From Pyropia yezoensis (Eukaryota; Rhodophyta; Bangiophyceae; Bangiales; Bangiaceae): a DNA stretch of 64,000 bases. Positions within the stretch are counted from its first letter, which is position 1. Each line of letters begins with the position of its first letter. Below are positions 3,762-54,163 of this stretch, in pieces. A program made the translations under genes and the position numbers. The notes under the pieces were generated by a model. It was given only the letters and a program-made list of their open reading frames with translations. It searched no databases and was not told the DNA's origin. The DNA is taken from assembly GCA_009829735.1 (NCBI GenBank), contig CM020620.1:20496020-20560019 (forward strand), given 5' to 3'.

Positions 3762-3805
<44 letters not shown>

Positions 3806-33223: not shown

Positions 33224-36200
33224 TTGGGAGGAGAGGACGGGAAGCCCCGTCACGTTGAACCAGACAAGGGCCCTATTCAGGATGCCCGAGCTACACCGGA
33301 TATCGGTGTAGGACATGTGTTGTTTACCTTGGAGAACTTCAAGGTATCAGCCACACTGGGGGTTGACCCCCAGTCGACACGATCGTACTACCCTGTACTG
33401 GACACAGGGGCTGGACCCAACCTTATCCGGAAGGATACCCTCCCGGACAAGTGGCTTCCACGAGTCAGAGTGACTCGGGGACCCACCATCAAGGACGCAA
33501 ATGGTCGACTCATTCGTACGACCGCAGCGATGTCGCTGCAGGTTACCATCGGGGATCTCACCACGGAAGTTGACTTCCTGGTATGTGAAACGCTATCGGT
33601 GCCCTGCATACTGGGGTGCACCTTCATCAACGTTCACGTTGATGCAATCCGGCCAGGCCGGAGGACCGTCGAGCTTCAAGAAGCCGACGGGACGAAGCGA
33701 GGACACACGGCTATCGTCAGGGACCTGACGCTACAAGGAAGCCACGTTAACGTGGCTGAGGTGTACGCAAGCGTCGAGCCGAAGACACTTCGGTTGGCCA
33801 AGCGAACTCGCTTTGAGCCGTTGTCAGAGACAGTCCTCCCGGTTAACTGCGACCTCGCAGGCATCTGCAGAGTCCAGTCCAACCTACGGACGTACAAGCG
33901 CCATGGGTTGACCATGGCCAACGGTCTCATAGACCTCCCAGCAGGAGGGTCGTCCCTCCTAGTGATGGCGAACTATCGCCGTAAGGCAGTCACCCTCCCG
34001 AAGGGAACTATCCTCGGGATTGCCGAACTCTACGAAGGAGATATCCTTACCCCTGATAAGGAAGGTCAAGTGGAACCACTTGAAGTACTGGCGGTCGCCG
34101 AGACCACCGAGCGACAGCAACCCGATGACGGGAAGCCTAACCCATCGGCGGCTCCGGCGGACCTGCCGCCAAAGGACCAAGAGGCCTTGAAGGCACTGGC
34201 CGAGGCTGACCTCGACCACCTTCCCCCTTCGGTAGCCGAAGGGGTACGACGGATGCTAAGAAAGCATGACGTTATGTGGACAGGCGGGGCCTTGGGGACC
34301 ATTGGGGCAACCCAACATCGTATAGACCTGGTACCAGGCGCACGACCCGCCCGCTCACAACCGCACCGAGCGGGACCTATGCAACGAGAGATCGTTGATG
34401 GAGAAGTGAAGAGGATGAGTGAAGCTAAGGTGATCCGACCTTCGATGTCGGAATGGGGTGCCCCAGTCGTTATTGTGCCGAAGAAGGATCAAACCCCTCG
34501 GTTTTGCATCGATTATCGACGCCTCAACTTGGTTACCAAGAAGGACTCATACCCTTTACCAAGGATGGATGAATGCATCGACTCCCTGGGGGAGGCTACG
34601 GTGTTTACCACCATCGACTGCAATGCCGGATACTGGCAGATCCCGGTGGCGGACGAGGATATCCCCAAGACGGCATTCGTCTGTCACAGTGGAGTGTACG
34701 AGTTCCTAAGGATGCCCTTCGGATTGTCCAACGCCCCCGCTACATTCCAGCGGGCTATCGACATCATACTGTCGGGGGTGAAGTGGCGTAACTGCCTAGT
34801 GTACCTCGATGACGTCATCGTCTTCTCGCGTAACATGGATGACCATGTACAACATGTTGACGAGGTACTCACCCTCTTGAGGAACGCCGGGGTAACCCTG
34901 CGTCTGAAGAAGTGCGCCTTCTTCCAACAGACGGTCGAGTATCTGGGCCACCAGATAACCCCTGGTAAACTAGGGGTACTCGAAGCCAATACCCGGGCAC
35001 TCCGGGATGCCCGGTTCCCTAACACCAAGACGCAGCTCAAGAGCTTCCTGGGAATGTGCAATGTATACCGACGGTTCGTCAAGGACTTCGCTCGGATAGC
35101 TAAACCGTTAACGGTTCTTACGAGCAGTACCTTACCCAAGGTACTCCAACCCCCTTCGCCTAGCGAAGAGGAGGCATTCGAGTGGCTGAAGCGAGCCCTA
35201 CTAGCCCCACCCGTCCTTGCGTTACCGCATAGACGGGGTACCTTCGTCATCGATGTCGATGCGTGTGATACACAAGTGGGATGCACCCTGTTACAGGGAG
35301 AGACGTTGATAGGTACCGACAACGTTATCCCGGACCTACGTCCGGTAGGGTACTTCAGCCGGACACTCAACCCGGCTGAGCGGAACTATAGTGCCACCGA
35401 GCGTGAATGCCTCGGAGTTATATGGGCAGTGCAACTGCTCCGTCCATACCTGGAGGGCTCCAGGTTCATCGTGGGGTCCGACCACGAACCCCTACGATGG
35501 CTCCTCAACCTTGGTGACAAGGATTCCGATAGCCATGGGAGGCTAGCCCGATGGAGGCTGAAGATGGCCGAGCACGACTACCGCACGGTGTATAAGGCTG
35601 GGTCAACCCACCACCTCGGAGACGCATTGTCTCGACTCGACACCCCGAGCGGGGATACCCGCCCGGTGGACGAGGACATCCCGGTAGTACCGGTGTGCAT
35701 GGTGGGTAATGCTACCCAGGGTATGGCTGACCATACCATGGCACACCTTGCGTGCCCATTGACCCTCGCGGACTTCCGCGAGGCACAGGCCAACGACGAT
35801 GACTGTAGACGTCATCGTGCTAACCTCCTGGCCGGTACGGCCGGCATCTTCTCCGAGAACGAAGACGGACTCATATACCGGCGGGCACCCGCCGATGGAC
35901 GACATCAAGTCGTGGTTCCCGTGTCCTTACGGCAAGCCGTCATGAAACGAGAACATGAGAACCCTACAGCCGGACACCCGGGGGGTTCACGTATGTTCGC
36001 AGCAATGCGAAGGTTCTTCTACTGGCCAGCAATGGCCGTCGACGTGATCGACCACGTAAGGGGATGCCACCCCTGTGCACGTAACCGCATTGGTCTACAT
36101 AGGCGGGCGTCTGCCATGAAGCTATTCCCACCTGATGGGCCCAACGAGCAAGTCGCTATCGACATACTCGGGCCACTTCCGATAACGGAAGAAGGGAACA

Positions 36201-37231
36201 GGTACATCCTGGTCATGTCTGACCGCTTCACTAAGCTGTCAAGAGCGGCAGCCATCCCGAATGATACGGCATACACGATCATGAACGCAGTGGTTGACCA
36301 CTGGATCAGTGCATACGGAGTCATGAAGCAACTCCTCTCCGATAAAGGAGCAAACCTTACGTCGGCATTCTGCACTAAGGTCCTGGGCATGTTCGGTATC
36401 GAACCACGTCGGGCATCCGACTACCACCCGCAGTCCAACGGGCAGGTGGAGCGGTTCAACCGCACCATCGTAAAGATGCTACAGTGCTACGTGGCCGAGC
36501 ACACGAACACTTGGGACAGGCTTCTGTCCGTACTCACCCTGGCATACAATGCCAGGCCACATCGGAGCACAAACATTGCTCCGCTGGAGTGGGTCATGCC
36601 ACTAGGCGTCGGTAACTTGACGCTGCCACCCGGCAGGTGCACTCGGTATGATACACCGAAGGGCCGACCCGCCGAACGCATCCACCTAGCTTGGTTGGCC
36701 AAGCTATCGTGGATGATTCCTAAGCTCAAGGGTGCCCTTGACAGAACACAACTTCGGTATGAGAAGAACTTCAACGCCCGACTACGGGTGCGCAACGCAA
36801 CCCTGGTAACAGGTGGCTGGGTCTATATCAGACACCAGAAGTTCCGAGGGAACAAGCTTATGCAACCGGTCAAGGGACCGTACCAGATCCTCCACAGAGA
36901 TGACCACTCTGTTATCTTACACTCCGATACCGAGATTCAACGCATCAGCATGAATGACGTCACACCTGCTCCGATGCCGGAACAGCCTCAGCCGGTACCG
37001 GCTGGGTTGCTACATGAAGCTCTTACAACCCACCGGTCAGATGACCCGGTGGGACCGGATGGGATTCCATACCAAGTAGAGAGCGTGGTCGGACACACCG
37101 ACCCGGACCTACCAGGACCCTGGTACGTCAAGGTTATGTGGGTCGGATACGACTCACCCACCTGGGAACAGGCGGCAAATATACCCCGCCAACTCCTCAT
37201 GCCGTACATGAGGCGACGACGCCTACTGTAA
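33224..37231 (+). CDS. Pol polyprotein, family B, intact (1335 aa)
   Basis: Domains in order: aspartic protease (LDTGAGPN, about residue 59); reverse transcriptase with FCIDYRRLN and LVYLDDVIVF (about 527); RNase H (DVDACDTQVG, ERECLGVIWA, GSDHEPL); integrase zinc region (HPGGSRMFAAMRR...CHPCAR); catalytic triad in AIDILGPLP (about 979), SDKGANL (about 1040) and QVERFNRT (about 1075); chromodomain-like end (PWYVKVMWVGYDSPTWEQ). SDNGANL in the left copy is SDKGANL here; the Asp itself is kept. It lies in the same phase as gag, but stops at 33053, 33065 and 33140 intervene. Pol therefore needs its own initiation: the first ATG is 33224, and the open phase begins at 33143. The DNA is saturated with short perfect hairpins (see findings). 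Confidence 0.95.
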   Translation: MGGEDGKPRHVEPDKGPIQDARATPDIGVGHVLFTLENFKVSATLGVDPQSTRSYYPVLDTGAGPNLIRKDTLPDKWLPRVRVTRGPTIKDANGRLIRTTAAMSLQVTIGDLTTEVDFLVCETLSVPCILGCTFINVHVDAIRPGRRTVELQEADGTKRGHTAIVRDLTLQGSHVNVAEVYASVEPKTLRLAKRTRFEPLSETVLPVNCDLAGICRVQSNLRTYKRHGLTMANGLIDLPAGGSSLLVMANYRRKAVTLPKGTILGIAELYEGDILTPDKEGQVEPLEVLAVAETTERQQPDDGKPNPSAAPADLPPKDQEALKALAEADLDHLPPSVAEGVRRMLRKHDVMWTGGALGTIGATQHRIDLVPGARPARSQPHRAGPMQREIVDGEVKRMSEAKVIRPSMSEWGAPVVIVPKKDQTPRFCIDYRRLNLVTKKDSYPLPRMDECIDSLGEATVFTTIDCNAGYWQIPVADEDIPKTAFVCHSGVYEFLRMPFGLSNAPATFQRAIDIILSGVKWRNCLVYLDDVIVFSRNMDDHVQHVDEVLTLLRNAGVTLRLKKCAFFQQTVEYLGHQITPGKLGVLEANTRALRDARFPNTKTQLKSFLGMCNVYRRFVKDFARIAKPLTVLTSSTLPKVLQPPSPSEEEAFEWLKRALLAPPVLALPHRRGTFVIDVDACDTQVGCTLLQGETLIGTDNVIPDLRPVGYFSRTLNPAERNYSATERECLGVIWAVQLLRPYLEGSRFIVGSDHEPLRWLLNLGDKDSDSHGRLARWRLKMAEHDYRTVYKAGSTHHLGDALSRLDTPSGDTRPVDEDIPVVPVCMVGNATQGMADHTMAHLACPLTLADFREAQANDDDCRRHRANLLAGTAGIFSENEDGLIYRRAPADGRHQVVVPVSLRQAVMKREHENPTAGHPGGSRMFAAMRRFFYWPAMAVDVIDHVRGCHPCARNRIGLHRRASAMKLFPPDGPNEQVAIDILGPLPITEEGNRYILVMSDRFTKLSRAAAIPNDTAYTIMNAVVDHWISAYGVMKQLLSDKGANLTSAFCTKVLGMFGIEPRRASDYHPQSNGQVERFNRTIVKMLQCYVAEHTNTWDRLLSVLTLAYNARPHRSTNIAPLEWVMPLGVGNLTLPPGRCTRYDTPKGRPAERIHLAWLAKLSWMIPKLKGALDRTQLRYEKNFNARLRVRNATLVTGGWVYIRHQKFRGNKLMQPVKGPYQILHRDDHSVILHSDTEIQRISMNDVTPAPMPEQPQPVPAGLLHEALTTHRSDDPVGPDGIPYQVESVVGHTDPDLPGPWYVKVMWVGYDSPTWEQAANIPRQLLMPYMRRRRLL

Positions 37232-37309
37232 CAACCCAACCGACACCGACTTCGGCTGTTGGGGGGTGAGGCTTATACCTACTAAGTAGGGTGTGACGTG
37301 GTTACGGCA

Positions 37310-37351
37310 GACTTAGGTTTCTAAGTCAAATCAGACTTAGGTTTCTAAGTC
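37310..37351. repeat. Tandem short hairpins between pol and accessory gene
   Basis: Two perfect copies of GACTTAGGTTTCTAAGTC (7-bp stem, 4-nt loop) at 37310-37327 and 37334-37351. A third, weaker one follows 24 bases on. Further hairpins of GGGAGGATGACCTCCC type lie at about 37454 and 37488. They occupy the 454-bp region where the pol and accessory transcripts must end. Confidence 0.85.
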
Positions 37352-37685
37352 GAACCAAGCTTAGGTAACTAAGTAAAACCTGAACCTTAATAAGTTAACT
37401 TAAAGGTAAAGGCTAACTCCGATAATATCGAAGTAACTAGGGAGCTTACACGGGAGGATGACCTCCCCAAGCCAAGACACCAAGTGAGGGAGGATGACCT
37501 CCCCAAGCATGAACCTACCGGAAGAAGTTGGACGGGAGGCAAGGCACCACTGAGCCAGAAGGGGTACTCCCCAGGGCAGCAAACAGAGGCAAGCAATGCC
37601 CCCAAAGGGGATGAGTTTATACTCACTACTACCCGGCTACCATAAGGGTTGCCGGGGCCCTCTCCCGCACAAACAATAGCACTCC

Positions 37686-40133
37686 TCAGTGGGTAGACCC
37701 ACTGCCCGAGGGAGGCCACTCACGCGTAAGCGCGTAGACCTCCGTGCTCCACCGGTCGGCAACGTCACGACGGTCGACCACCCGAGTTACCTCGGTGCAT
37801 AGCTGGACGAGGGTGCTGCGGCCAGCCTCCACGTCTTCCAGAGCTTTCTGGAGGCGGTCCAGCACGCCACCGAAGCAACGCGCTGACCCAACCAGCGCAG
37901 CACCTGGGGGGATATCCCCCCAGCTAACAGAGAGACCCCCACGCATTGCGCGGGTAACAAGGGCGTCAACGCCCTCATACCAGAGACGGGGACCCCCGTC
38001 ATGTAGGACAGGGGCGGGAGGTGACACTGGCGCAGCCAGAGGAGCCACAGGAGCCGACACGGCTACCACCGGAGCCGGTGGCACCTGATACGAGGCCCGG
38101 TAGGACCCTACCGAAGGGGCTCCACCGTAACCACGGCGGTACTCCGCCCGACGACGGGACACCTCACGCTCCCCACCCACAGAGCCCCACTCTCGGGGAC
38201 GACGGCCAACCGCCGCCGGCATCGGGTTACCGAACCACGGAGCAAGGACCTGAAGAGGGTCATGGATAACCATGGGAATATCCAGGTCAGCAACAGCCTC
38301 GGTGGATGTCCACCCATGGCAACTGGGCTCACCCGGCTGAGTACGCCGGACACGCAACGAGTGACGAGGCAAGGGGGAAGCCCCAGCCTGCGGGTCCCGG
38401 TACGGGGGAAGGGCCAACACCCCAGCCCAGTTCACGGCATCGTGAACAGCCAGCAGGGCTTCGAACTCCCGGGCCAACCCGGTCTTGGCGGCTATCAGAT
38501 CCACGCCCAACTGCGCGATGTGCCGACGGACACCCGTCGGAAGATGAAACAGACGACCCTGCCGGCGGACGGACAGCAAGAAGGATGAAGCCTGCCCGAG
38601 GGTAACCTCAAGGGTGAAGGTACCCTGCAACGGGTGGACCGGTCGCGAGGCCAACACACTCCCGAAGTAGCGAAGACAGGAGCCGGTGTCAAACCGGAAA
38701 GCAGGGGCGGGTTCCCACCCCTCCTGCCATAGCGGCGGGCGCACGGGAGTGTATACCGGAGCACGACCGTTGCCGGTCTGCAACGCACACGTTATATCCG
38801 TGCGGAACGCATCCGCCATGACACCATGGTTACGTCGCCAACTCGACGCCGACTTCAACCCCGCCATGGGCGGGTAGGGAGCCGTCAACGACAGATACGG
38901 GGGTACCCCCGGGTAGTAGTCAAAGTCGGGATACCGACCGGTACTGCCCACCGTCTCCCCAAACGCAACCGGCTCCGCCGCCGCCGCAATCCCCCGAGCA
39001 CTAGCCGGGTAGTCAATCTCCCGCGGCAACGCGGGGGCAATCAGGTCGCAGACCCCGAAGTTGGGGTCGAGGTAGACCTCACCCCGTCCCACCCGGGTGC
39101 GCCAGAGCTGCGCATGCCGGTCGTCCGGCTGACTCAGGATCCAATGATGTTCCACCCGGACCGCGTTCGGCTGGTTGACCAGCCGCACCAACTCCCGCTC
39201 CCAGCTCGGGTCCACCTTAACGCGGCGGGAGGACTCTCCACGGGGATGCACCAGGTGAGAGTCCACCCGCATACGCCCATCGGACTCCATCGACTCTTGC
39301 ACCGTGAGGCCTCGAACCCGAGCCACCAAGTCGGACACCGACATGGCGGGTTGACCCGCCGCCACGGCGACGCCGCCACCCAACGGGGCAACCCGGGCAG
39401 GACCAGGAAGAATCGGGGGCGCCGGGGGACGCACCACCGGCAGAGGGGCCGACGTCGGAGATGGACGAGGCCGAGGAGGAAGAAGAAGGGCGGGCGCCCG
39501 CCCGGAGTAACTCCCGGTGTCAACCGCCATGGGAGAAGGAGCGTCTTGACCGCTCGACACCCGCGGCACCGCAGGTATGGTACCGGCGCCGGCACCACCC
39601 GTCGGCGTAGCCCCCGCCTCGGAAGGGGAAGGCACTTGGACAGCCTCCGGAGCCGGAGCCCCGGCCGTGCGGACACCCGCACCGTCTTGACCCGCCACAC
39701 CGGGTGTCGCACCGCCACCACCACCCGCGTCAACGTCGGGACCGCCTCGAGGAGTCACCGCCCGGACACCCGGACCACCATGACCAGCCGGAGTCGGCTG
39801 CGGGTCGCCACCTCCGCCGCAGGGCGGACCATCTTGAGGTAGCTGCGGTGAGCCGGCACCGGCACCAGGCTCCATCCGGGCAGCCGGCAGAGAGGGGGTA
39901 GAAGCCGCCACGCGCGGTTGACCGCCGGGTTGACCGCCGGCCGACGGCACCGTCGTGCCGCTGCACACGGACGACAGTCCTCCGGCCGACAGACGGACGG
40001 ACACCGCAGGCCCGTCGTCGTCAGACGAGCTCACCCCGTAACGTGCGGCGTCGGGACCGACAGGCGCGTCGTCCTCCATCTCCTCCCCGATCAGGAGGTC
40101 TTCCTCCTCTCCAAGCACCTGGGGATAGGACAT
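37686..40133 (-). CDS. Antisense accessory protein, family B, intact (815 aa)
   Basis: Encoded opposite to gag-pol, between pol and the 3' LTR. The start is taken at the ATG at 40133 (MSYPQVLGEEEDLLIGEEMEDD), where acidic, non-repetitive sequence begins. Layout: acidic N-terminus; about 250 residues rich in Pro, Gly, Ala and Ser; a folded region (from about SDLVARVRGLTVQES) including HHWILSQP and LRYFGSVLASRP; a segment with LEVTLGQASSFLLSVRRQGRLFHLPTGVRRH; a basic/Pro linker; and a C-terminal domain (WGDIPPGAALVGSARCFGGVLDRL). No signal peptide, clear membrane span or known enzyme motif is visible. Its layout matches the accessory proteins of families D and A and fragments of C. The position corresponds to that of env-like or antisense extra ORFs reported in plant LTR elements. 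The function is unknown; a Gag/Pol partner or a regulator of transposition is possible. Confidence 0.85.
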   Translation of the reverse strand: MSYPQVLGEEEDLLIGEEMEDDAPVGPDAARYGVSSSDDDGPAVSVRLSAGGLSSVCSGTTVPSAGGQPGGQPRVAASTPSLPAARMEPGAGAGSPQLPQDGPPCGGGGDPQPTPAGHGGPGVRAVTPRGGPDVDAGGGGGATPGVAGQDGAGVRTAGAPAPEAVQVPSPSEAGATPTGGAGAGTIPAVPRVSSGQDAPSPMAVDTGSYSGRAPALLLPPRPRPSPTSAPLPVVRPPAPPILPGPARVAPLGGGVAVAAGQPAMSVSDLVARVRGLTVQESMESDGRMRVDSHLVHPRGESSRRVKVDPSWERELVRLVNQPNAVRVEHHWILSQPDDRHAQLWRTRVGRGEVYLDPNFGVCDLIAPALPREIDYPASARGIAAAAEPVAFGETVGSTGRYPDFDYYPGVPPYLSLTAPYPPMAGLKSASSWRRNHGVMADAFRTDITCALQTGNGRAPVYTPVRPPLWQEGWEPAPAFRFDTGSCLRYFGSVLASRPVHPLQGTFTLEVTLGQASSFLLSVRRQGRLFHLPTGVRRHIAQLGVDLIAAKTGLAREFEALLAVHDAVNWAGVLALPPYRDPQAGASPLPRHSLRVRRTQPGEPSCHGWTSTEAVADLDIPMVIHDPLQVLAPWFGNPMPAAVGRRPREWGSVGGEREVSRRRAEYRRGYGGAPSVGSYRASYQVPPAPVVAVSAPVAPLAAPVSPPAPVLHDGGPRLWYEGVDALVTRAMRGGLSVSWGDIPPGAALVGSARCFGGVLDRLQKALEDVEAGRSTLVQLCTEVTRVVDRRDVADRWSTEVYALTREWPPSGSGSTH

Positions 40134-40706
40134 GATAACGGGTGCAGAGTCCCCCGCGCCCACAAGCCGTCGACGGCTACGACCCGGTACGGTGGGATAA
40201 CCGGGACGAGCCAGGGAAGCGCAGGCACCCGCGCTTATGACCACAAACGGCCACGAGCAGCGCCGCAAACACGCGGGTCGACCCACGCCGCACGGGGCTA
40301 CGAACGCGCCCCACCCAGGCACCTGGGCGGGACGGGGCCACCCCCACACATGGGGTAAGCAAGGGGGGTCACCCCCAACCGCCCCCACGCAACGCGGGCA
40401 GCCCTCGCCCCCCACTCAATCGTCCACACGAGAGGGACCCCCCTACCACCAGGCACCTGGTGGCGGATCCGCTTGCACCACCCCTCGGAAAGGGGGGTCG
40501 TGAACAAAAACCCGCATCGGGAAATTAACGGTCCGGAAAACGGATCGTGTGTGTACCACACAAAGTGGGGCACCCCCCTCGGACAACCTCGAAAAGGGGT
40601 GTCTGTCGCGACGGGGCGCAAAGCCCCACCCGACGGGTAAACAGTCACGCGACCCACTTACATTCGGTAACCCGAATGCAACTCGACCCGAGGACGGGCC
40701 GAATCT
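40134..40706. other. Leader of accessory gene, family B right copy
   Basis: G/C-run-rich region between the accessory ATG and the polypurine tract, mirrored at 26276-26848. It would hold the accessory gene's promoter or 5' UTR if transcription starts in or near the 3' LTR. No clear TATA box is seen. Confidence 0.4.
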
Positions 40707-40716
40707 AAGGGGGGGA
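40707..40716 (+). other. Polypurine tract, family B
   Basis: AAGGGGGGGA immediately before TAT and the LTR start at 40719. It is the expected primer site for plus-strand DNA synthesis, and it supports the 3' LTR boundary. Confidence 0.8.
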
Positions 40717-40718
40717 TA

Positions 40719-41080
40719 TGTAGCAATATGGTTGTCCGTATTGTGACCCTAATATTAGGGGGGCTACTTCTAATCCTTAACTTCAATTTGAGAGTCCGAG
40801 CTGGTCACGGTATCTATAAGTTACGTATGTCCAGAGGGACTTGCATCTTGGGGTGGAGGGTAGTTAGTAGTGTCTCCGAGGGTTTATAACGAGGGGGCCG
40901 GTGGCGAATCCACCGCCGGCCAAGGTAGAACAACAAACCCCTCCCATTTGGGCTCCCATCTTGGTCCCGTGGCTTGCGCTCCAAGGACAGCAACCTTGGC
41001 CTCCCGGTGACGTTGGTGCCGATCCCCCTTGGTGAGTGTTCCCTGAGAGTGGACGTGCGACGGATTCCTATTGTGCTACA
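40719..41080 (+). repeat. Family B 3' LTR, right copy (362 bp)
   Basis: Begins TGTAGCAATATGG and ends CCTATTGTGCTACA, imperfect inverted termini like those of families A and D. A TTATAAACCC-type TATA sequence occurs within it in reverse (GGGTTTATAA near 40880). Confidence 0.85.
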
Positions 41081-42670
41081 CACCCTCCCTCTCTCCCTCT
41101 TGGGCATGGTGACACTCACTGGCTGTTCCTTCCCGCCATCCCCTCACACCGCTGACTGGGGAGGGGTGGTATTTTACGGAGGGGTGGGGTGGTGCCCGTG
41201 AAGAGGGGGAGAGAGCGGTTCATGGGGTCGCTCATTTGCTGTGGACGGGCGGGCCGGAGTAGCTCGTTGGATGGCGACGAACACGGCCGACGACGGGCAG
41301 CGGAAAGAGATGGTGTAGTCGACCGCTGGTGTATGATGCGTGGGAGGAGGGAGGCGGCGGTGGGGAGGGCCGACGGGGAACTAGACGCCGTGTGTCAGCG
41401 AACAAGGCGATGTGTGGGGCGGGAGGGGACTTTAACTGTTCATGTTGCTTGATTGACGCGTCGTATTGGTGTGGCTGATGCGTCCGGGAGGTAGCTAGTA
41501 GGCGAGGGGTAGCATTGGAGCGATGGGGCTGAAGATGGGAGGTTAAGGGGAAAGGCAGGACGTCAATGAGGCGCAGCGAAGGGGGAGGTGGAGGGTAGGC
41601 GACGGAGGGGGGGGGAGGATTAGGGTTAGACAACATTTCTAGACCAAACCTAAGAACAAAGTATCAGTGACCATAGGCAGGGAGTTGCTTGCGCTCCGCG
41701 AGTTGCCACACAGCGAGAAGGACTGTCTCAGGGCACAGCGAAATCGCAACATACTAGCTGCTAATCGCACGACCAGACCATGACAATTGATCAGGGGCGA
41801 ACCCACCTACATAGCGGTGCTCGAATCGCACCTGGGGCGAACAGCGATTTCACCAGTGCAAACGAAGGGCGAACTCGAACTTGTTTAATCACTCTCCGGG
41901 TGGCACAGTGGTGCTGGCGGGACCCAGGCGGTGTGTGGTCACCACGTCAAAGCCAGTCGCGCGTGTTCTGGGCTCCAAGGTGCCCCCTGCGACGTGCCAG
42001 AGGCGCGCATTGCGCGTATCCGTCTGACACCAGTCTTTCACAAGTGACACCAGTTCTTCATAACTTCCAGTTATATAGAAAACACACAGTGTTTACATAG
42101 CAAAATCGATGTGGGCACGGGAAGAAAACAAGCACCAGCTGCGCATCGACTCGCGCCAAAAATTGAAGCGGGCATAAACGCAAACGGTGAGTCACACGGA
42201 TGGACGCACCAACTCATGGGCTCTCCAGTGATGTAAAGAAGGCCCAAAGAGGCGGGCTTTTTGCCGCGCCACGGCCCGCTGAATACAAGAAAGGCGGGTA
42301 TCCCAGAGAGAAAAACAATCCAAATACCTCGTCTGGGGGCCCATCTGACTGATTGAGCGGCGCGCCCCGCGCTTCCCGCCGGCGCATACGCCCAGTTCCC
42401 TGCCTACTCTCCGTCTTCCCCCCCTCCCCTGGATGCACCGTTCTTCTCCACTACCCTGCAGGGGCAGGGATGGCTCCTCGGCCCCTATGCAAAGCTGCGG
42501 CCGCGTCAGAGACGCCGCTGCCGCGCTGACGCCTCGCACCAGGCAGGTAACAGGGAGAAGTTCTGCCCGGTGCGACCCCCACCGCCCCCTTCCTGCCTGG
42601 TATAAGCACTTCATGTCCTCCCTACCTGGCCGCGAACCTTCTTAGTCGGGCACCCGCCGCCCGTCCCTTG
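41081..42670. other. Unassigned DNA right of the family B dimer
   Basis: No supported gene. Sequence is unrelated to the family A gag found left of the dimer. A pair of near-identical 20-mers (TGACACCAGT...) sits at about 42024-42063, followed by a TATATAG string near 42072. A minus-strand frame at 42192-42614 has no known domain. Confidence 0.4.
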
Positions 42671-43290
42671 TTGGGTCGAGGTACTCCTTCTCCTCCCCCC
42701 CTTGCTGCGGTCCTCCTGGGTCGGACGGCCGCCCCCCTCCCCTTTTGGGTCGGGGTACCCCGTCCCATCCTCCTTGGCCGCGGTCCTTCTCTGTCAGACG
42801 GCCTCCCTCCTCCCCTGTTTGGTCGGGGTACCCCCCCCCCTGCCTCCTGGCTGCGGTCCTGCTCGGTCGAACCACGGCCCCTTTCCCCTGTTGAGTCCGG
42901 GAACCCCCCCCCCCTGCCCCCTGGCTACGGTACTGCTCGGTCGGACCGCGGCCGCTTTCCCCTGTTGGGTCGGGGTACCCCCCGCCCCTGCCTCCTGGCT
43001 GCGGTCCTGCTCGGTCGGACCACGGCCCCTTTCCCCTGTTGAGTCCGGGAACCCCCCCCCCCTTCCCCCTGGCTAGGGTACTGCTCGGTCGGACCACGGC
43101 CGCTTTCCCCTGTTGGGTCGGGGTACCCCAAACCCTCCCCCCCTAGCTTCGGCCCTGCTCGGTCGGACCGCCGCCCCCCTCCTCTATTGGGTCGGGGAAC
43201 CCCATCCTTCCCCCTCTTGCCGTGCTCCTGCCTGGACGGAGCCTTCAACCCCCACCCCGATTGGTCGGGGCACCCCATCCCGTCCTGCTC
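42671..43290 (+). repeat. 73-74-bp tandem repeat, about 8.5 units
   Basis: Units start with TTG(G/A)GTC(G/C)GGG at 42671, 42745, 42818, 42891, 42964, 43039, 43113, 43187 and 43261. Each has a GGGGTACCCC-like or GGGAACCCC block, a C-run, and CTGGCTGCGGTCCTGCTCGG. The array ends about 275 bp before the family C accessory gene and may be part of that element's LTR or leader. Confidence 0.9.
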
Positions 43291-43565
43291 CGTCGCCAGG
43301 GCGGGGTGAGGCGGTGTAGGGTCACAAACATGGGCCAGCGGAACGTAGGCGCAGCCCTGGTACCAATTGGAACGTTGGGGGCCAGTGGATAAGAGCACCC
43401 TCACGGGTTCCCTCGTCCCTAGCACCTGGGTCCCATTGTACCATCGTCCCCGCGGCGCTTCCCCTGGGCACCTCGTTCCCCCCCGTTACCTCGTTCCCTT
43501 TCTCGGTTTTCGTGCCCACGGACCCCACCACACGTACCACCACGTTCCTCTCGACCCGGGCCCCC

Positions 43566-44513
43566 ATGGATACCGGCTGCGCTGCGGCGGCCTCGCCTGC
43601 TAGCGCGGGCCCTGTGGTCTCCGACCGTCAAGGTGACCGAGCTGTTCAAGGTGGCCCCGCTACTGGGCCAGACGCTCTCTCAATGGACTTAGAGGAAGCC
43701 GGGGCGGGCCAGTCGTACGCGGCCAAAGCTGGCGTGGTTCCTGAAGACTTTGGACCCGAGACAGTTACGGCGTGGCGTCAGGAGGAGGCGCGGGGTTGGG
43801 TCCCTAGTACCCGGGCTCATGGGATCCTTCGTGCCGTGGACGGGAGCTGTCCGGGTATCTCGTTTCGCAAGCAGATGGCAGTGATGCCGGAAGCTCGGAT
43901 CCCTGTCCTTTCGGACCGTTCCCAATCGATCACGGTTGTGCGGCACGCGGACGAGGTCGGGTACGTCGAACGGTTCAAGGCGGTCCGCATGGAACGCACC
44001 CAAGGGACCCTTCCTGCCGCGCCTTAAACTTGTTACCTGATTGGGTCTCCTCCGTACCTGAACCGTTCCGGGTACCAAGTGACCCAACCTAGCCTGGTGA
44101 TCAGTCGGCACCATCGTGACAAGAGTCGGTTCCTTGTCGGGTAGCACCAACAAGAGTTCCTAGGCTGTTCAGCGGCTACCCGCGGACTCCATTACGTTCG
44201 GGTTCCACACTGGTTCGAGAACGTGGAACTACCATTTGGGGCCCTTGTGGAGCTTCCTGCGGTCCAGTGTTACTTCACGGAACTTCTTCGTTCGTCGGAC
44301 GCGTTCGCTTAGTACGTGTTTCGGACGGAATGGGCTACAAACTGTGCTGTGTACCTGCTCGAGTTCACCCGGCGGCAGGGTTACCTGTGTATCTTCCCTC
44401 CGCCCCTTCGTACGTGGATCCAGCGCGTCGGTACCCGTGCTATCTGTCAGAGTCCCGGTGGCGTGGACGAGGCCGCAGCGCGGGACCTGGACGCCCTTCT
44501 GATTCTTAGTGAC
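43566..44513 (+). pseudogene. Antisense-type accessory gene, family C, 5' part
   Basis: Starts at the ATG at 43566 and reads to 44027, then changes phase in the decayed part up to the family D insertion at 44513. The LTEWATNCAVYLLEFTRRQGYLCIFPPPLRTWI-type region (written here from two adjacent short pieces near 44320-44420) corresponds to the family D segment with HEVFVSNRLWFLPDLLMVWI. GTAC is frequent in the DNA, as in the family C pol. The gene resumes at 54164, so it was split by family D. Its gag-pol partner is not nearby. Confidence 0.75.
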
Positions 44514-45084
44514 TGTGGTATAAAACTCGATCCTCTCAGACACGTGTCAATATCCCTCGGGGGAAAGGGACAGGTGACACAGAAAGGGGAACTACGAGAA
44601 TGGTATGCCTGTTGCCTCACGTGCCTGCTCGCAGAGCAAACAGATACGCACGGTAGTGCACACGGGGAAGAGGAAAGCAAACGCGCAGTTGTCTTTTTCC
44701 TGAGAACGCGGGCCAAGGGCGCCTCGCTGTCCCTCCTAACGCGCATCTGGGGGAGCCTCGGCACGTTGGCCAGGTAGCCCCCCCATAACCCCGAGTGGCC
44801 CCGACCCGAGTCTAACCTCGTCAGGTCGGGGGCCACTATCACTACTAATTCTATTCCCACCCACTAATCTCACACTCAAGTTCTCTCAAATCAAGTCCCT
44901 CACAAGTATGCAAAAACCCATCAGATATCCCTCTCTCACGTGTGGATAGCGTAGTCCGCCGCATCCCAGTGCCGGGCACGGGCCACGGCCGCCAACCATC
45001 ACCACACGGCGGGCGTGTTCTGGCACCTGGTGCCCTCTGGTTGTAGTCCCGGGTCGGCGCCAAGTCGGGGCCAGGGATGCCACA
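44514..45084 (-). repeat. Family D 3' LTR
   Basis: In element orientation it starts TGTGGCATCCCTGG and ends TTTTATACCACA. It is the partner of 53593-54163. It carries a change at base 2 from the outer terminus compared with the other LTR (TGTAGC). Confidence 0.95.
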
Positions 45085-45098
45085 TAGCTCCCTCCCTA
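45085..45098 (-). other. Polypurine tract, family D
   Basis: TAGGGAGGGAGCTA in element orientation, immediately before the 3' LTR. It confirms the minus-strand orientation. Confidence 0.75.
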
Positions 45099-45268
45099 GT
45101 CCGGCACGTCCTCGGGCCGAACCAGGTGCCACCGTGCACAGCCTCGAGCACGTCCACACCGGTGCCGAGGTCGAGCGTCTTCACCCTGGTCACGATCACC
45201 TGCTCCGGTTCTCTGCCCCCCTTCTCTCCTTCACCTTGGCCCTCTCGTTCCCCCGGAGTCTGGACGTC

Positions 45269-47386
45269 ATGTCCAGTTCCGAGATCCAATCTGGGCCCGT
45301 GGTTCCGGCGGCGAGTGTTGCGGAGGTGAACTCGGGTAGTCGCGCTCCTCTCCTGCCTCCGGTTCCTCGGGTGTCGATGTCGGCGCCGGTCGCCACGGCG
45401 GGGACGGATCGGGTTCCCCCGGCTTCTGTGATGCACCCGGTCGAGACCCCCACGGTGGGTCTCCCGGAAATGCTTCTTGGGCAGGACCCTCTGGCGGGCC
45501 GGCGCTACTCCACGGTGGTCGGCAACGCCGGCGCGGCCCAGTGCCAGCAGGATTGCTTGGACCTCTGGCGCAAGGCACTCCAGCGCGGGGTCTTGACAGA
45601 GATGGATAAGGCTCGTCTTCACACGGCGGACCAGATGCGCCTGGCACAAGACCGCTCCCAGAGCTTCTCGGGTTCCTCTTGGGTTGCTCGTCTGGAGGAT
45701 CTCCCCTTCGCGCTGGTGCTGGATCTGCCCTTGACCGAGCGTCGCGTGTCCGCGTCCGTTCTCCGGTGGCCGGAGGAGGAAGGGTACGTCCACCGGGCGC
45801 TCAAGGTCTGGGACGAGGCGCTCAAGGGGTCGGGGAGCCTGAACTGCGACCCCCGTCCGAGCATGGTCGCTCTGGAGCCGCCTTTCCTGACCCGGAAGTA
45901 CTCCAAGTTGTCACCGGCACGGGAGCAAGGCGAGCGACGCGGCCGTCAGCGTGACTTCCTCGTGAGCTGCAACCATCAGGAGTTCTGGAAGCTGGATAAG
46001 GCTAACCGGGCGGCGTACTACCCCAAGGTCATCCCACAGCAGCAGAAAGTCGAGATCCCGGTTGGGTTTGCTCCTTCCAGCATCCCCTTCACCTGGTACT
46101 TCTTGGACGCCTTGACTCAGGCGTCGATCAAGGGCTTCTTCCACTCGATCCTGTACATGATGTACACGTCCGAGATGACAGTCTTGGCGGCCAACCACTG
46201 GCTTCACGAGGTCTTCGTGTCCAACCGGCTTTGGTTTCTCCCTGACCTCCTGATGGTCTGGATTGTCGACAAGTTGACCGTCGACTTCCTGTGCAGCCAG
46301 GACGAAGAGTACAAGGGGCTCTTCCAGGCGATGATTGACTTCCGGCGTCTGGTGCCGGTGCATGACCGGAACTTCATGAACGCGATTGCCGACCAGAACC
46401 GCCCGCGTCGGGATGGCTTCGGTTGGGCGCAGGTGGTCTACCAGTCTTCTCCGGCCAAGGTGCAGCTGGCGACGCCGCTTCCGGCGTGGCCGCAGCTAGG
46501 TAGCTTTCCTGCCCCGGCCGCCCTTGATCTTCTGCCAGTTGGGCCGCCGGTGCAGGAGTCGGGATGGGCCGCGGCGGTCGGTCAGGCGTCTGCGGCGGCT
46601 CCGCTTCCTCCTGTTGCACCTATCGCCCCGGTGGCCTCGCCTGAACCGTCGCCGGCGCGTTCACGCCCTGTTCCGGCTGTACCGGTACTTCAAGCTCCTC
46701 CGGCACCGCGCCTGTCTGCGGCGAGGCTGGGGGTGACCGTGCGGTCGCCTACCACTCCGGCCGCTCCGCCTCGGACGCCTTCTTCCAACGCCGGCGGCGC
46801 TGTGCCTCCGCTGGAGTTGGGTACTCCGGTTTCGGGGGCCGTTGTGGACCGTCCGGTGGTGTCGTCCTCGGGGCGGCTCGAGATTCCGGCGCCGACTCTG
46901 CGCCCTTCCCGCTTCCGGGTGCCTGACTGGTACCTGAACCAAGGTGGCCCGACATGCGACCAGTACGACGTCGGTATGGTTGAAGACCAGCTGGGTCGTC
47001 TTCCGGTGCAGGTTGAGGGCGTCGGGTCTTACCTGGTGCTGGGCACTTACGCCAGCGTCTTGAACAACGTGGTTGACCGGGTGTTTGCTTGCGCGGACAG
47101 CGGCCAGATGTCGAACAGCCCGGTGGTTGGCGAACTTCTGGCGACCTTGACGCGGCATGGCTTGGCCCAGCAGTGGTCAGAAACCTTCACTGGCTTCCAG
47201 GGGCGCCGACGGGCATATCTGGATGAGCGGGAGCCCCCGGCAACTACCGGTACTACTCCGATGGCGTCATACCGGGATGCACCGCGTCCACCGCACTACG
47301 TCATCCCGTCTTCCTCCGGTTCCCGTCGTGCCGCGGAGGCAGCGCTGGAGGACACTCCCGCGGCTCAGCGTCCGCGCTGGGAGTAG
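45269..47386 (+). CDS. Antisense accessory protein, family D (705 aa)
   Basis: Opposite strand to gag-pol. The ATG at 45269 (MSSSEIQSGPVVPA) lies 184 bp from the 3' LTR and the stop lies 145 bp from the end of pol, so the genes converge. Layout: Ser/Pro-rich N-terminus; a helical region (CQQDCLDLWRKALQRG...); LPFALVLDLP; a conserved central block from VEIPVGFAPSSIPFTWYFLDAL through HEVFVSNRLWFLPDLLMVWIVDKL; a Pro/Ala-rich linker of about 150 residues; then a C-terminal domain (PVQVEGVGSYLVLGTYASVLNNVV). The central block has aromatic-rich helices but no convincing membrane span. No known domain is recognised. Intactness in an element with diverged LTRs suggests the product has been useful to the element. 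Function is unknown. Confidence 0.88.
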   Translation: MSSSEIQSGPVVPAASVAEVNSGSRAPLLPPVPRVSMSAPVATAGTDRVPPASVMHPVETPTVGLPEMLLGQDPLAGRRYSTVVGNAGAAQCQQDCLDLWRKALQRGVLTEMDKARLHTADQMRLAQDRSQSFSGSSWVARLEDLPFALVLDLPLTERRVSASVLRWPEEEGYVHRALKVWDEALKGSGSLNCDPRPSMVALEPPFLTRKYSKLSPAREQGERRGRQRDFLVSCNHQEFWKLDKANRAAYYPKVIPQQQKVEIPVGFAPSSIPFTWYFLDALTQASIKGFFHSILYMMYTSEMTVLAANHWLHEVFVSNRLWFLPDLLMVWIVDKLTVDFLCSQDEEYKGLFQAMIDFRRLVPVHDRNFMNAIADQNRPRRDGFGWAQVVYQSSPAKVQLATPLPAWPQLGSFPAPAALDLLPVGPPVQESGWAAAVGQASAAAPLPPVAPIAPVASPEPSPARSRPVPAVPVLQAPPAPRLSAARLGVTVRSPTTPAAPPRTPSSNAGGAVPPLELGTPVSGAVVDRPVVSSSGRLEIPAPTLRPSRFRVPDWYLNQGGPTCDQYDVGMVEDQLGRLPVQVEGVGSYLVLGTYASVLNNVVDRVFACADSGQMSNSPVVGELLATLTRHGLAQQWSETFTGFQGRRRAYLDEREPPATTGTTPMASYRDAPRPPHYVIPSSSGSRRAAEAALEDTPAAQRPRWE

Positions 47387-47531: not shown

Positions 47532-50500
47532 TCAATCCTCTTGTTCCGCATCCGTTGCGGATGAACTCGGCTCGTCCCGAGGGTCTTGGTTGGCCCCATC
47601 CTCTTGGTCCTCCTCCGAGTCCGACTCCAGAATCTTGCCGGCTCTGGCCACTGGAGTGCCCTCTATCCCGTTCCGTCGCGTGTAGGCACAGACATCCGCG
47701 ATGGGTCGCTGGTTTGAGGGTTCCCAGGTATCATCTGCCGGGTTAAATCCGAACCAGCGTACTCGCAGGTACAGGCGTCCGTCTCTCCAGGCATGGTCCA
47801 CAAACTTGACGTAGACATATTCCCGACCTTCTTCTTGGGATAGCCAGGGTACTGCGGCCCGCTTGCGCCGGGTCAAGTCCCGTTGGCTTGGCGGTGGAGC
47901 TCGGGTGACATGGTCGCTGCTCACCCGGTACGGGGAGCCATCCACGTCTAGGAGGAAGGTCCAACCGTCCGTATTCAGGATCTCATAAGGTCCATCCGTC
48001 TTCGAGTCCAGCTTCCCCCGGGTCTTGCTATGGTTGTCCACAAAAATCCAGTCGCCACCACCCAGTTCCTTGTTCTTTTCCCGAACGCCCTTGTCATAGC
48101 CCCGCTTGTATCGCTCCTGGGTCTTCGAGATTGACTCCTTGACTCTTGGGAGCAGGAGCTTCAGTTGTTCCAGGAACTCATCCTTTGCCTTGGGACCTGA
48201 CTTCAGTGCAGGCTGGAGACCGTCTGGTATTCTTTCCAGGGAGAAGTTGTTCAGCCGCCTTGGGGTGACAAAGTCGAGTGGAGCGACCCCCGTTGTCCGG
48301 TGAACTCGGGAATTGTAGGCTAGAGGGAGGACAGCCAGGAGCTCGTCCCAGTCTTCTTGGTGCTCCTCCACGTAGTGCCGTAGCATGTCTACTAGGGTCC
48401 GGTTGAATCGTTCCACCTGGCCGTTCCTTTGAGGGTGGTACGTCGTAGTGTACAAGTTCTTGATGCCCATCAGGTCACAGACTCCTTGGAAGAACAGGGA
48501 TGCGAACTGGGGACCGTTGTCGGTTAAGACGGAGTCTGGAGGGCCATAGGCAGCTATCCAGTACTCGCAGAAGGCTGACGTGACATCCAGAGCCGTGATG
48601 GTCCTCAGCGGGATTGCTCGAGTGAACTTGGAGAACCGGTCACATATGATGAGCAGGTATATGTTGCCACTGGATGTTTCAGGTAGGGGCCCCAGGATGT
48701 CCATGCTTAAGCTTGCAAAGGGCTCCGCCGCAGGGAATAGGCGTAGCTTAGAAGTCTTCTTCCTCTGGGACAACCGGTTCCTTGCACACGAACCACAAGC
48801 CTCCAGGTACTTATGGACGTCACTGGCCATGGTTTCCCAGTAATAGTGTCGTCTCATGGAAGCATACATCCGATTGATACCAGGATGTCCGGCCTGGGGA
48901 GACGAGTGCTCCAGGCGTAGGATGTCAGCTCGTAGGCCCCGGGGTACGTAGACTTCAGTGGCCCCATCGAAGGGTGACACCCGTACTAGGAGTCCGTCCG
49001 TAGACTGGAAGAAACGCCTGTTCCGGTTAAGGTCCATTTGGTGGCGAAGCTCCAAGCATTGAGGATCCGTCAGTTGTGCCTCCAGCATCCGGTGAATGGT
49101 CACCGGTTGATGAGCTTCAGGTGTCTCATACAGGGGAGCGTGCCAGCCACGTCTGACATTTGGGAGGATGAAGCAAGGTATTTCCTCCGGGATAGGACCA
49201 GTATCGGCTGCAGGAGTCTCCAGCCGGGACATGGTGTCGGCGCAGTGGTGCTCCCTCCCTGCTCTGGTGCACACCTTGTACTTGAACTCCGAAAGGCGTA
49301 GGCGCCACCGGGCGACCCTTCCTTGACTGCTGTCCATGCATAGCAGCCACCTTAGACTGGCGTGATCCGTCCGGATGAGGAACTCTTGTCCTTCAAGATA
49401 TGGCCGTAACAGGAAGCAAGCCCAGACGACTGCCAAGCACTCGCGCTCCGTCGTGGAATAGTTCTTCTCGGCTGGAGTCAAGACGCGACTGTAGTAGCCT
49501 ATCGGGAGGAAGTGCCCATCAGGTTGCTGCTGGAGTAGTGAGCACCCCACCTGGACGCCACAGGCATCAGTCTCCAGAACAAACTGGCCCTCCCGCTTGG
49601 GTAACGCCAGTACTGGAGTGGTGGTCAGGCGCTTCTTGAGCTCTTCGAAGGCCGCGGTCTGCTTCTCGTCGAACACCGGGAGTTGTGCGGGAAGCTTCTT
49701 GCTGGTAAGCTTGGTCAATGGCCGGGCAATCAGAGCATAGTCCCGTACGAACCGGCGATAGACGTTGCACATACCCAGGAAGCTCTTGAGTTCCGTCTGG
49801 GTTTTGGGTTGCCGTGCATGCCAGAGGGCCTTGATGTTCTTCTCATTGACTCGGAGCTCCCCTGGACTCAGCACGTGCCCCAGATACTCCACCTCAGTCT
49901 CAAACAGGTGGCACTTCTCGGCCTTGAAGGTAACTCCAGCCTTGGACAGGAGGGCCAGGACCTCCCGAAGGTGCTCCAGGTGTTCCGCTGGGGTCTTGGA
50001 GAAAACGATAATGTCGTCCAGGTAGACCAAACATGTTCTCCTCCCTAGCCCGGACAGGATGATGTCGATGGCTCTTTGGAAGGTTGCCGGAGCATTGGTG
50101 AGACCAAAAGGAAGACGCTTGCACCGGAATAGTCCCAGGTGGCACGTGAAGGTGGTCTTGTCCTTGTCCTCGTCAGCCAGAGGGATCTGCCAGTAACCGG
50201 CATTACAATCCAGCGTCGAGAAGAGGGTGGCATCACCAAGAAAGTCGAGGCAATCATCCATCCGGGGTATCGGGTATACGTCCTTGACTGTCATCTCGTT
50301 CAGGCGCCGGTAGTCAACGCAGAAACGGAAGTGACCGCCGGTTTTCGGGACGACTACCACCGGGAAAGCCCACTCGCCATCAGACGGCTCGATAACATCC
50401 ATCTTGAGCATCTTGTTAACCTGCTTCTCAATCTCATCCCGGCGATGAGGTCCGGCCCGATATGGTTGCATGTGCACTGGCTTAGCTTCCGGCTTGAGTT

Positions 50501-51491
50501 GAATCCGGTGTAGAGTGGCGTCTATCTTGCCCAGCTCTCCCGACCACAGGTGCCGATATTCCTGGAGAAGCTTCTCCAGTGCCTCCTTCAAGTCGGGAGG
50601 GACATTTTCTTGCTTGACCTTCGGCATCCCGGGTGGTGCTTGTTCGGGTTTCGGAGTAGCGCTGCCAGCTTGCTCTTGCTTCGGAGGTACGTCTAAGGCC
50701 GTCAAGTTGGATGCCAGTTCTTGTTCCAGGTTCAGGAGGTCTTCCTTGCTCATAGCACGGGCGGATCCCCGGTAAGGCTCTGCTGTACCAACTCGGGTGC
50801 CCTTGGCGAGGGTTATTGGCTTCCGGCTCACGTTGACGATTAGCACCGAGAACGGGGTGTGCCTTTCTACCTTCTTGTGATGTCCGTGGGCCAAGTATAA
50901 CCGGTGTTTCGCCAGAAATTCCTTACGTCCGTAGATCAGGCATTGGCCTGCAATCCGGGTCGTTACTTGAACCTTGGTCTCCGAGCGAGGAGGTAGGAGC
51001 ACCGGTTTGAAGAGAGTCAAGGTAGAGGGTGGGATGCGTTCCCTCTTGCTCTTGGCTACACGAACCTTGGCGTCCAGATGTTCCAATACCGGTGACACAA
51101 ACCCATGGTTGAACTGGACCTTCCCTTCTCCGGGTAGGATGCTCTTGACATGCTGCTTCTGGAAGTCCCAGCCTAGGATGAGGGGGACTGATAGGGTCTT
51201 GACTACTAGAAAGGGAAAAAGCATTGGTTCATTGTTGACATAGATGGCGACAGGAAGACGGCCAAGCGGTCGTAGGGATTGACCCGAAGCGTCGACGATA
51301 TGGGTCCGGGTAGGCGCTCTCCAGGCATGTCGACGCCAGCCCGGAGGTAACAGGTTCTCAGTGATGACGCTTGGTCCGGCTCCCGTGTCAACCACCGGCG
51401 TAACAGCTTGGGGGAGGCTATCCCCCACACGCATACGAGCATTAATCTTGAGGTTTTCTTTACGCAGGACGAGTAATGTCCCCTTGAACAA
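47532..51491 (-). CDS. Pol polyprotein, family D, intact (1319 aa)
   Basis: Protease VVDTGAGPS (Asp about residue 35). RT with FCVDYRRLN, FGLTNAPATFQRA and YLDD (about 490). RNase H with ETDACGVQVG, ERECLAVVWA and RTDHASL. Integrase zinc region (HPGINRMYASMRRHYYW...CGSCAR) and triad in MDILGPLP (about 930), TDNGPQF (about 988) and QVERFNRT (about 1024). Chromodomain (VYVKFVDHAWRDGRLYLRVRWFGFNPADDTWEP, given here only to locate it, about 1220-1265) and an acidic tail. The first ATG is 130 bases after the gag stop in another phase, so pol needs separate initiation or a recoding event. The chromodomain would steer integration to marked chromatin. Confidence 0.96.
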   Translation of the reverse strand: MFKGTLLVLRKENLKINARMRVGDSLPQAVTPVVDTGAGPSVITENLLPPGWRRHAWRAPTRTHIVDASGQSLRPLGRLPVAIYVNNEPMLFPFLVVKTLSVPLILGWDFQKQHVKSILPGEGKVQFNHGFVSPVLEHLDAKVRVAKSKRERIPPSTLTLFKPVLLPPRSETKVQVTTRIAGQCLIYGRKEFLAKHRLYLAHGHHKKVERHTPFSVLIVNVSRKPITLAKGTRVGTAEPYRGSARAMSKEDLLNLEQELASNLTALDVPPKQEQAGSATPKPEQAPPGMPKVKQENVPPDLKEALEKLLQEYRHLWSGELGKIDATLHRIQLKPEAKPVHMQPYRAGPHRRDEIEKQVNKMLKMDVIEPSDGEWAFPVVVVPKTGGHFRFCVDYRRLNEMTVKDVYPIPRMDDCLDFLGDATLFSTLDCNAGYWQIPLADEDKDKTTFTCHLGLFRCKRLPFGLTNAPATFQRAIDIILSGLGRRTCLVYLDDIIVFSKTPAEHLEHLREVLALLSKAGVTFKAEKCHLFETEVEYLGHVLSPGELRVNEKNIKALWHARQPKTQTELKSFLGMCNVYRRFVRDYALIARPLTKLTSKKLPAQLPVFDEKQTAAFEELKKRLTTTPVLALPKREGQFVLETDACGVQVGCSLLQQQPDGHFLPIGYYSRVLTPAEKNYSTTERECLAVVWACFLLRPYLEGQEFLIRTDHASLRWLLCMDSSQGRVARWRLRLSEFKYKVCTRAGREHHCADTMSRLETPAADTGPIPEEIPCFILPNVRRGWHAPLYETPEAHQPVTIHRMLEAQLTDPQCLELRHQMDLNRNRRFFQSTDGLLVRVSPFDGATEVYVPRGLRADILRLEHSSPQAGHPGINRMYASMRRHYYWETMASDVHKYLEACGSCARNRLSQRKKTSKLRLFPAAEPFASLSMDILGPLPETSSGNIYLLIICDRFSKFTRAIPLRTITALDVTSAFCEYWIAAYGPPDSVLTDNGPQFASLFFQGVCDLMGIKNLYTTTYHPQRNGQVERFNRTLVDMLRHYVEEHQEDWDELLAVLPLAYNSRVHRTTGVAPLDFVTPRRLNNFSLERIPDGLQPALKSGPKAKDEFLEQLKLLLPRVKESISKTQERYKRGYDKGVREKNKELGGGDWIFVDNHSKTRGKLDSKTDGPYEILNTDGWTFLLDVDGSPYRVSSDHVTRAPPPSQRDLTRRKRAAVPWLSQEEGREYVYVKFVDHAWRDGRLYLRVRWFGFNPADDTWEPSNQRPIADVCAYTRRNGIEGTPVARAGKILESDSEEDQEDGANQDPRDEPSSSATDAEQED

Positions 51492-53380: not shown

Positions 53381-53570
53381 GTTGGTCTCTTGACAGCCAC
53401 AGTCCAGTTGCCTGCGTGTCCAAAGATCGCCAGACCACAAGAGAGGGGTTGGAGAGCCAGGAATGGGATTCCCGTGAACGGGTGCAAATAATTCCCAAAC
53501 CACAGAAAAAGACAGAACAGGAACAACCCAACCGCTGCTCCCAAATGTCTCTTCTCAAACACTCCAATCA

Positions 53571-53592: not shown

Positions 53593-54163
53593 TGTGGTAT
53601 AAAACTCGATCCTCTCAGACACGTGTCAATATCCCTCGGGGGAAATTGACAGGTAACACAGAAAGGGGAACTACGAGAATGGTATGCCTGTTGCCTCACG
53701 TGCCTGCTCGCAGAGCAAACAGATACGCACGGTAGTGCACACGGGGAAGAGGAAAGCAAACGCGCAGTTGTCTTTTTCCTGAGGGCGCGGGCCAAGGGCG
53801 CCTCGCTGTCCCTCTTAACGTGCATCTGGGGGAGCCTCGGCACGTTGGCCAGGTAGCCCCCCCAAAACCCCGCGTGGCCCCGACCCGAGTCTAACCTCGT
53901 CAGGTCGGGGGCCACTATCACTACTAATTCTATTCCCACTCACTAATCTCACACTCAAGTTCTCTCAAATCAAGTCCCTCACAAGTATGCAAAAACCCAT
54001 CAGCAATCCCTCTCTCACGTATGGATAGCGTAGTCCACCGCATCCCAGTGCCGGGCACGGGCCACGGCCGCCAACCATCACCACACGGCGGGCGTGTTCT
54101 GGCACCTGGTGCCCTCTGGTTGTAGTCCCGGGTCGGCGCCAAGTCGGGGCCAGGGATGCTACA
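53593..54163 (-). repeat. Family D 5' LTR
   Basis: 571 bp, starting TGTAGCATCCCTGG and ending TTTTATACCACA in element orientation. Its inner edge abuts the primer site and gag, so it is the promoter LTR. Confidence 0.95.

Follow-up and report, generated by a model that had tools for sequence, protein, structure and literature searches.

Evidence for a shared family of antisense accessory genes in Ty3/gypsy retrotransposons of the red alga Pyropia yezoensis

Antisense genes in the elements of the window

The 64,000-nucleotide (nt) stretch of the Pyropia yezoensis genome analyzed here (contig CM020620.1, positions 20,496,020 to 20,560,019; referred to as the window) contains Ty3/gypsy long terminal repeat (LTR) retrotransposons of four families, A to D. 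A preliminary description claimed that each of these families carries a long gene antisense to pol, which held for B and D within the window and, elsewhere in the genome, for A (six of seven loci) and C (locus L076). Sequence profiles, a constant position and strand, and purifying selection together support the existence of a shared antisense accessory gene family.

The family D element is complete within the window and displays the order of its parts. The antisense gene (45269 to 47386, forward strand), an open frame of 705 amino acids whose product has profile homology to those of A and C, lies between pol (47532 to 51491, reverse strand) and the 3′ LTR (44514 to 45084, reverse strand), on the strand opposite to pol, with 184 nt between gene and LTR and 145 nt between gene and pol stop. 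The pol gene encodes reverse transcriptase (RT), RNase H, and integrase; its protease match is below the cut-off, as is that to the chromodomain PF00385 (E value of 0.0011 against a curated cut-off), a domain for which B had no match; the chromovirus label given to the families in the preliminary description is tentative. The remaining parts are a gag-like open reading frame (ORF) with a zinc-knuckle match below the cut-off (51620 to 53503, reverse strand), which is related to the gag-like ORF of family A (hhalign score of 87.5), and the 5′ LTR (53593 to 54163, reverse strand). The two LTRs differ at 15 of 571 sites and have TG..CA ends, a purine tract (GGGAGGGAG) lies just inside the 3′ LTR from position 45085 on, and the flanking target duplication reads GTGAC on one side and GGGAC on the other (four of five positions equal). 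No primer site was identified in this copy.

Family B has the same arrangement. Its antisense gene (37686 to 40133, reverse strand; open, 815 amino acids) is located between pol (33224 to 37231, forward strand) and a 3′ LTR (TGTAGCA...TGCTACA; 40719 to 41080, forward strand, boundaries by eye) with a purine tract ahead of it, and it is antisense to pol. The anatomy of the window thus confirms the position and strand proposed earlier for the B and D genes. Of 41 genome matches to the region of the B LTR (40600 to 41080), 12 lie 466 to 468 nt from a B antisense gene among those listed, on the opposite strand. A second B antisense gene (26849 to 29296, forward strand) accompanies a pol remnant (29754 to 31931, reverse strand). 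Because this copy has an in-frame stop at 27746 to 27748, the window contains just one intact B antisense gene, and the earlier statement that B and D copies are intact stands for D and for one B copy but not for the other. No B 5′ LTR was found in the window. The two B copies are arranged head to head as an inverted repeat of about 6.3 kb that is 97.8% identical (25899 to 32208 and 34775 to 41080), an odd rearrangement.

The A and C genes of the window are damaged. The A antisense gene (57991 to 59771, forward strand) adjoins a 3′ LTR (57184 to 57652, reverse strand, inner end by eye), contains one stop (59419 to 59421), and is cut off by the neighboring element at 59770, where the A element ends against another, oppositely directed A-type LTR. 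The two C pieces, a decayed 5′ part (43566 to 44513, forward strand; core pieces at 44145 to 44309 and from 44313) and a 3′ part beyond the D element (54164 to 54564, forward strand), belong to a single decayed gene that the D insertion divided; open relatives of the C gene are present elsewhere in the genome. A tandem array of units of about 74 bp (42611 to 43280, forward strand) adjoins the C gene. Plant Retand elements likewise have tandem repeats in the interval from pol to the 3′ LTR, according to the available text of PMC11963269.

Position, homology, and selection across the genome

The genome searched comprises 107.5 Mb in 11 contigs, three of which measure 29 to 44 Mb. Since the search scored only the best candidates, the copy numbers of A, B, and D are lower bounds: at least 81 places for A (77 of them stop-free in the matched part), at least 58 for D (43 stop-free), and at least 55 for B (50 stop-free). 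The C gene was found at 139 places, grouped near 80, 64, 52, and 40% identity. Two additional carriers, families E and F, have the gene downstream of related pol genes. F was found at 84 places (42 to 100% identity) and E at 57, of which 6 are 83 to 100% identical and 51 are 29 to 36% identical, most of the latter coinciding with places in the F list (best E value of 3e-12).

In all families examined, the strand of the antisense gene and the side of pol on which it lies are the same. Among 30 fetched A copies, 21 have the open 724-codon frame and 29 have an A LTR beside the antisense gene (partial in L025; none in L035). An alignment of 24 A copies recovered the pol end in 23, the remaining locus being misoriented, and an opposite-strand open frame is found where pol ends in six of the seven A loci inspected, the exception being the window's own copy. 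At the C locus L076, the pol end lies beside the antisense gene on the other strand. For E and F, position was assessed at the 27 RTs whose match spans profile positions 1 to 205. The F gene lies 3187 to 3367 nt downstream of 14 of these RTs and the start part of the E gene about 5.1 kb downstream of 6; all 20 genes are antisense and none is sense, and 7 RTs have neither gene.

Profile-profile comparison of the proteins linked the central cores of A, B, C, and D, with B and D joined only via A and C. With single sequences, hhalign scores were 90.8 for E-F, 50.6 for B-A, 48.9 for D-A, 37.6 for A-E, and 33.2 for A-F, compared with a maximum of 27.1 among 120 comparisons of A with shuffled E and F sequences. 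With C and F/E used as profiles, the scores were 99.2 for C-D (over 311 columns), 63.8 for A-C, 53.7 for A-B, 46.2 for A-D, 43.0 for A-FE, 42.2 for B-C, and 34.3 for C-FE (maximum of 48 column shuffles, 26.1). The pairs B-D, B-FE, and D-FE are linked by transitivity via A and C, because their direct scores are close to noise. In addition, a profile built from the A, B, D, E, and F cores, and thus free of C, recovered the decayed C core of the window (E values of 9.4e-5 and 0.051). These scores indicate that the antisense gene is homologous across families A to F, with the shared part in the central core.

The common layout proposed earlier was upheld for the cores, which are linked above the shuffled controls, but not for the C-terminal domain. 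In the C-terminal region, only 2 of the 15 family pairs, E-F (27.7) and A-C (23.2), scored above the highest shuffled value of 19.3; this control consisted of 20 shuffles, of C against shuffled D only. The C-D pair scored 17.3, and its alignment in this region contains suggestive common residues.

Purifying selection maintains the antisense gene in the families tested (A, B, C, and D). For each codon column, changes from the commonest codon were counted and split into private changes, seen in one copy, and shared changes, seen in two or more. In 24 A copies (those of 30 with frames of at least 700 codons), the shared changes were 55 synonymous and 10 nonsynonymous (dN/dS-like ratio of 0.06) and the private changes were 72 and 71 (0.34). 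In nine stop-free D copies, the shared changes were 11 and 2 (0.06) and the private changes were 34 and 56 (0.58), and in nine stop-free B copies, they were 18 and 9 (0.19) and 24 and 35 (0.55), respectively. The dN/dS near 1 that would have contradicted the selection claimed earlier was not found among the shared changes. Binomial tests, which compared these changes with neutral site counts and ignore transition bias and relatedness, gave 3e-23 (A), 2e-5 (D), and 3e-5 (B), and the choice of copies among the best-scoring open ones biases these samples against nonsynonymous changes.

The constraint is specific to the frame. Third codon positions vary most and nonsynonymous changes are depleted, each of the five other frames of A, B, and D contains many stops, and the shared ratios in those frames are at least 0.90, except in the complementary frame that has the same third positions (0.11 to 0.27). 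Conservation resembles that of other element proteins, a comparison made in A only: the ratio was 0.04 for the antisense gene and 0.11 for the last 290 codons of pol in 21 of the 24 copies (L025, L027, and L035 having been dropped). Three C proteins (C1, C2, and C3) that are 51 to 66% identical gave NG86 omega values of 0.24 to 0.34, which are less exposed to the bias of copy choice but near saturation (dS of 1.1 to 1.6). The 114-nt gap between the convergent pol and antisense stops of A (L015, 871 to 987) holds 1 shared change, against about 9 expected from the silent rate of 0.079 in 21 copies, and its 14 private changes are not reduced; perhaps this gap serves as a common end of transcription in both directions.

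The RT fragments of A, B, D, E, and F are 56 to 80% identical between families, and those of a second RT group (L001 to L008) are 39 to 44% identical to them; this grouping is by identity, without a tree, the A fragment was assigned by its place upstream of the L015 pol end, and the C RT stands outside the comparison. The antisense protein of D is about 25% identical to those of A and B and thus diverges much faster than RT. At seven places, 2.6 to 5.1 kb downstream of second-group RTs, no homologue of the antisense gene was found (best E value of 2.9, at L054), with the limits that four of the seven RTs were themselves read, that a fixed distance could miss the gene, and that L048 seems by eye to enter an A-type element. 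With these limits, gain of the gene in one clade is likely rather than proven.

Searches with the F protein returned 19 database relatives, two of them hypothetical proteins of Pyropia vietnamensis (48 and 44% identity, the former representing 74 member sequences) and the others 39 to 95% identical. The D protein found a single protein (96%), which the search with an A/B/D alignment also returned. One scan of viral contigs yielded 26 pattern matches, none of them confirmed as a relative. No Pfam domain above the cut-off was found in the antisense proteins; matches of DUF6214 to B (best E value of 0.03) and DUF6525 to D (0.4) are below it and were taken as chance. An origin from Gag or Pol gave no signal (best scores of 24.3 over 11 columns for Gag and 20.3 for Pol), and the F profile had no match among the sequences of solved structures.

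The window also contains features apart from the four families. A 1216-amino-acid ORF at 2806 to 6456 (forward strand) with an alpha-amylase catalytic domain (PF00128; E value of 8e-26) is likely a host gene adjoining the repeats. Weak matches to Transposase_21 and DUF4218, below the cut-off, at 9090 to 11965 (forward strand) perhaps mark a CACTA-type DNA transposon, and ORFs at 55883 to 57280 (reverse strand) resemble a DDE transposase by eye, the longer of them having no Pfam match. A further Ty3/gypsy pol spans two ORFs at 20080 to 22911 (forward strand), with a chromodomain match below the cut-off.

Possible functions of the antisense protein

We tentatively favor, as a possibility short of a probability, the reading that the antisense protein is a nuclear accessory protein that regulates the RNA, DNA, or chromatin of its own element. 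We infer this from basic or RS-like stretches in some families (A, E, the P. vietnamensis F protein, and some other F members) and from the antisense protein of maize Grande gene23, reported to be nuclear in the available part of PMC7264820. The protein would be encoded by the element and transcribed from a putative promoter in or beside the 3′ LTR, with antisense transcription running toward pol and stopping against it, and, like the nuclear maize protein, it may act in the nucleus, where it would regulate expression, export, or integration. The core appears to be helical, with long low-complexity arms, and is taken as nonenzymatic because no Pfam match exceeds the cut-off. Several results weigh against a common role of this kind. 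Both structure models were poor (mean pLDDT of 33.6 and 37.0), and no fold was matched. Basic clusters and RS-like stretches are missing from B, D shows a single weak match that lies outside its tail, and C has one KRRK, in C1 only, so that a shared nuclear role is not uniform in the sequences. Furthermore, direct matches are absent for B-D (26.6), B-FE (18.1), and D-FE (16.8), which are at or near the noise level.

The main rival, which we consider unlikely, is a counterdefense factor that blocks host silencing or restriction, with the divergence between families and the constraint within them reflecting an arms race. Antisense identity of about 25%, compared with 56 to 80% for the carrier RTs, fits this proposal, as do the shared ratios of 0.06 to 0.19 within families, whereas the omega values among C1 to C3 are ordinary for a fast protein and no known domain rises above the cut-off. 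A broader version, rated equally doubtful, would combine an ancient, lineage-defining antisense superfamily of algal Ty3/gypsy elements, gained once before the families split, constrained within them, and almost unrecognizable between them, with a role as a weapon against or controller of host silencing. Less likely still, the antisense transcript would encode a structural protein or a particle component, whether envelope-like, matrix-like, or serving cell-to-cell spread. The proteins are long and have hydrophobic core segments, including one F segment with a mean hydropathy of 1.83 over 19 residues, but the corresponding peaks in A, B, D, and E reach 1.23 to 1.49, no relation to either Gag or Pol was found, and antisense expression would uncouple the protein from the particle proteins; envelope-like additional ORFs are sense, whereas every gene seen with a pol neighbor is antisense.

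That the antisense transcript rather than a protein is active, controlling copy number through double-stranded RNA, seems very improbable. The accessible text of PMC7264820 considers antisense transcripts of other retroelements as a possible origin of silencing RNA, but the constraint on the algal gene tracks the codon frame, and this coding constraint disfavors a purely RNA-based role; an RNA could act beside the protein. Capture of a host gene, or nesting of a separate transposon gene in the elements, would suit the opposite strand and separate reading direction and is only slightly less improbable: strand and pol side are constant in all families examined, no Pfam relative was found, and the pattern of divergence suits long descent with pol, although no systematic search was made for element-free or single-copy host copies. 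GC-rich DNA commonly has long antisense ORFs, and a chance open frame has already been refuted by the homology between families, the frame-specific constraint, and the stops that interrupt each of the other five frames in A, B, and D.

Relation to known antisense genes and significance

Antisense ORFs between pol and the 3′ LTR (aORF-3R) are known from maize Grande (gene23), rice RIRE2, PvRetro13, and fungal Boty, the plant examples dating from 1997 on and having no determined role, according to the available portion of PMC7264820. As far as that portion goes, the algal gene has in common with them its position, antisense strand, and many copies, as well as the lack of database relatives found outside elements and conservation like that of another element protein. 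It differs in belonging to red algal elements and to another protein family, with homology traced across six families. The antisense ORFs of Retand, a nonchromovirus lineage of flowering plants, carry the TRP28 domain (PF04195) in the part of PMC11963269 available; the likeness is of a frequent, likely ancient antisense gene within one element lineage. PF04195 matched none of the algal antisense proteins and had zero matches in this genome at E values of ≤10, so that a TRP28 relation was rejected.

The antisense genes HBZ and APH-2 are read from the 3′ end of the provirus, and HBZ, which has a bZIP domain, is shorter than the algal antisense proteins. No bZIP or other Pfam domain above the cut-off was found in the algal proteins, and no relation to HBZ-type genes is shown. 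Both genes are treated as deltaretroviral in the available text of PMC11963269, and another case of accessory genes in red algae, in DNA transposons, is reported in that of PMC12477816. The available portions of PMC7264820, PMC11963269, PMC12477816, and PMC4007536 do not describe the algal antisense gene, and no report of such a gene in red algae was found in the literature searched, most subscription journals and preprints being outside its coverage. The suggestion of an undescribed system is therefore retained in part: the antisense proteins form a new family, carried by red algal Ty3/gypsy elements and undescribed as far as searched, but the kind of gene is already known from plants and fungal Boty.

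The role of antisense genes in LTR retrotransposons is an open question, for which the red algae provide an independent lineage. Six families have the gene, which is apparently old and present in many near-identical open copies, and the second group had none in the seven sampled places. This contrast between carriers and noncarriers within one genome makes tests of gain and loss, localization, and binding possible. The algal family also indicates that position and strand can stay conserved far longer than sequence.
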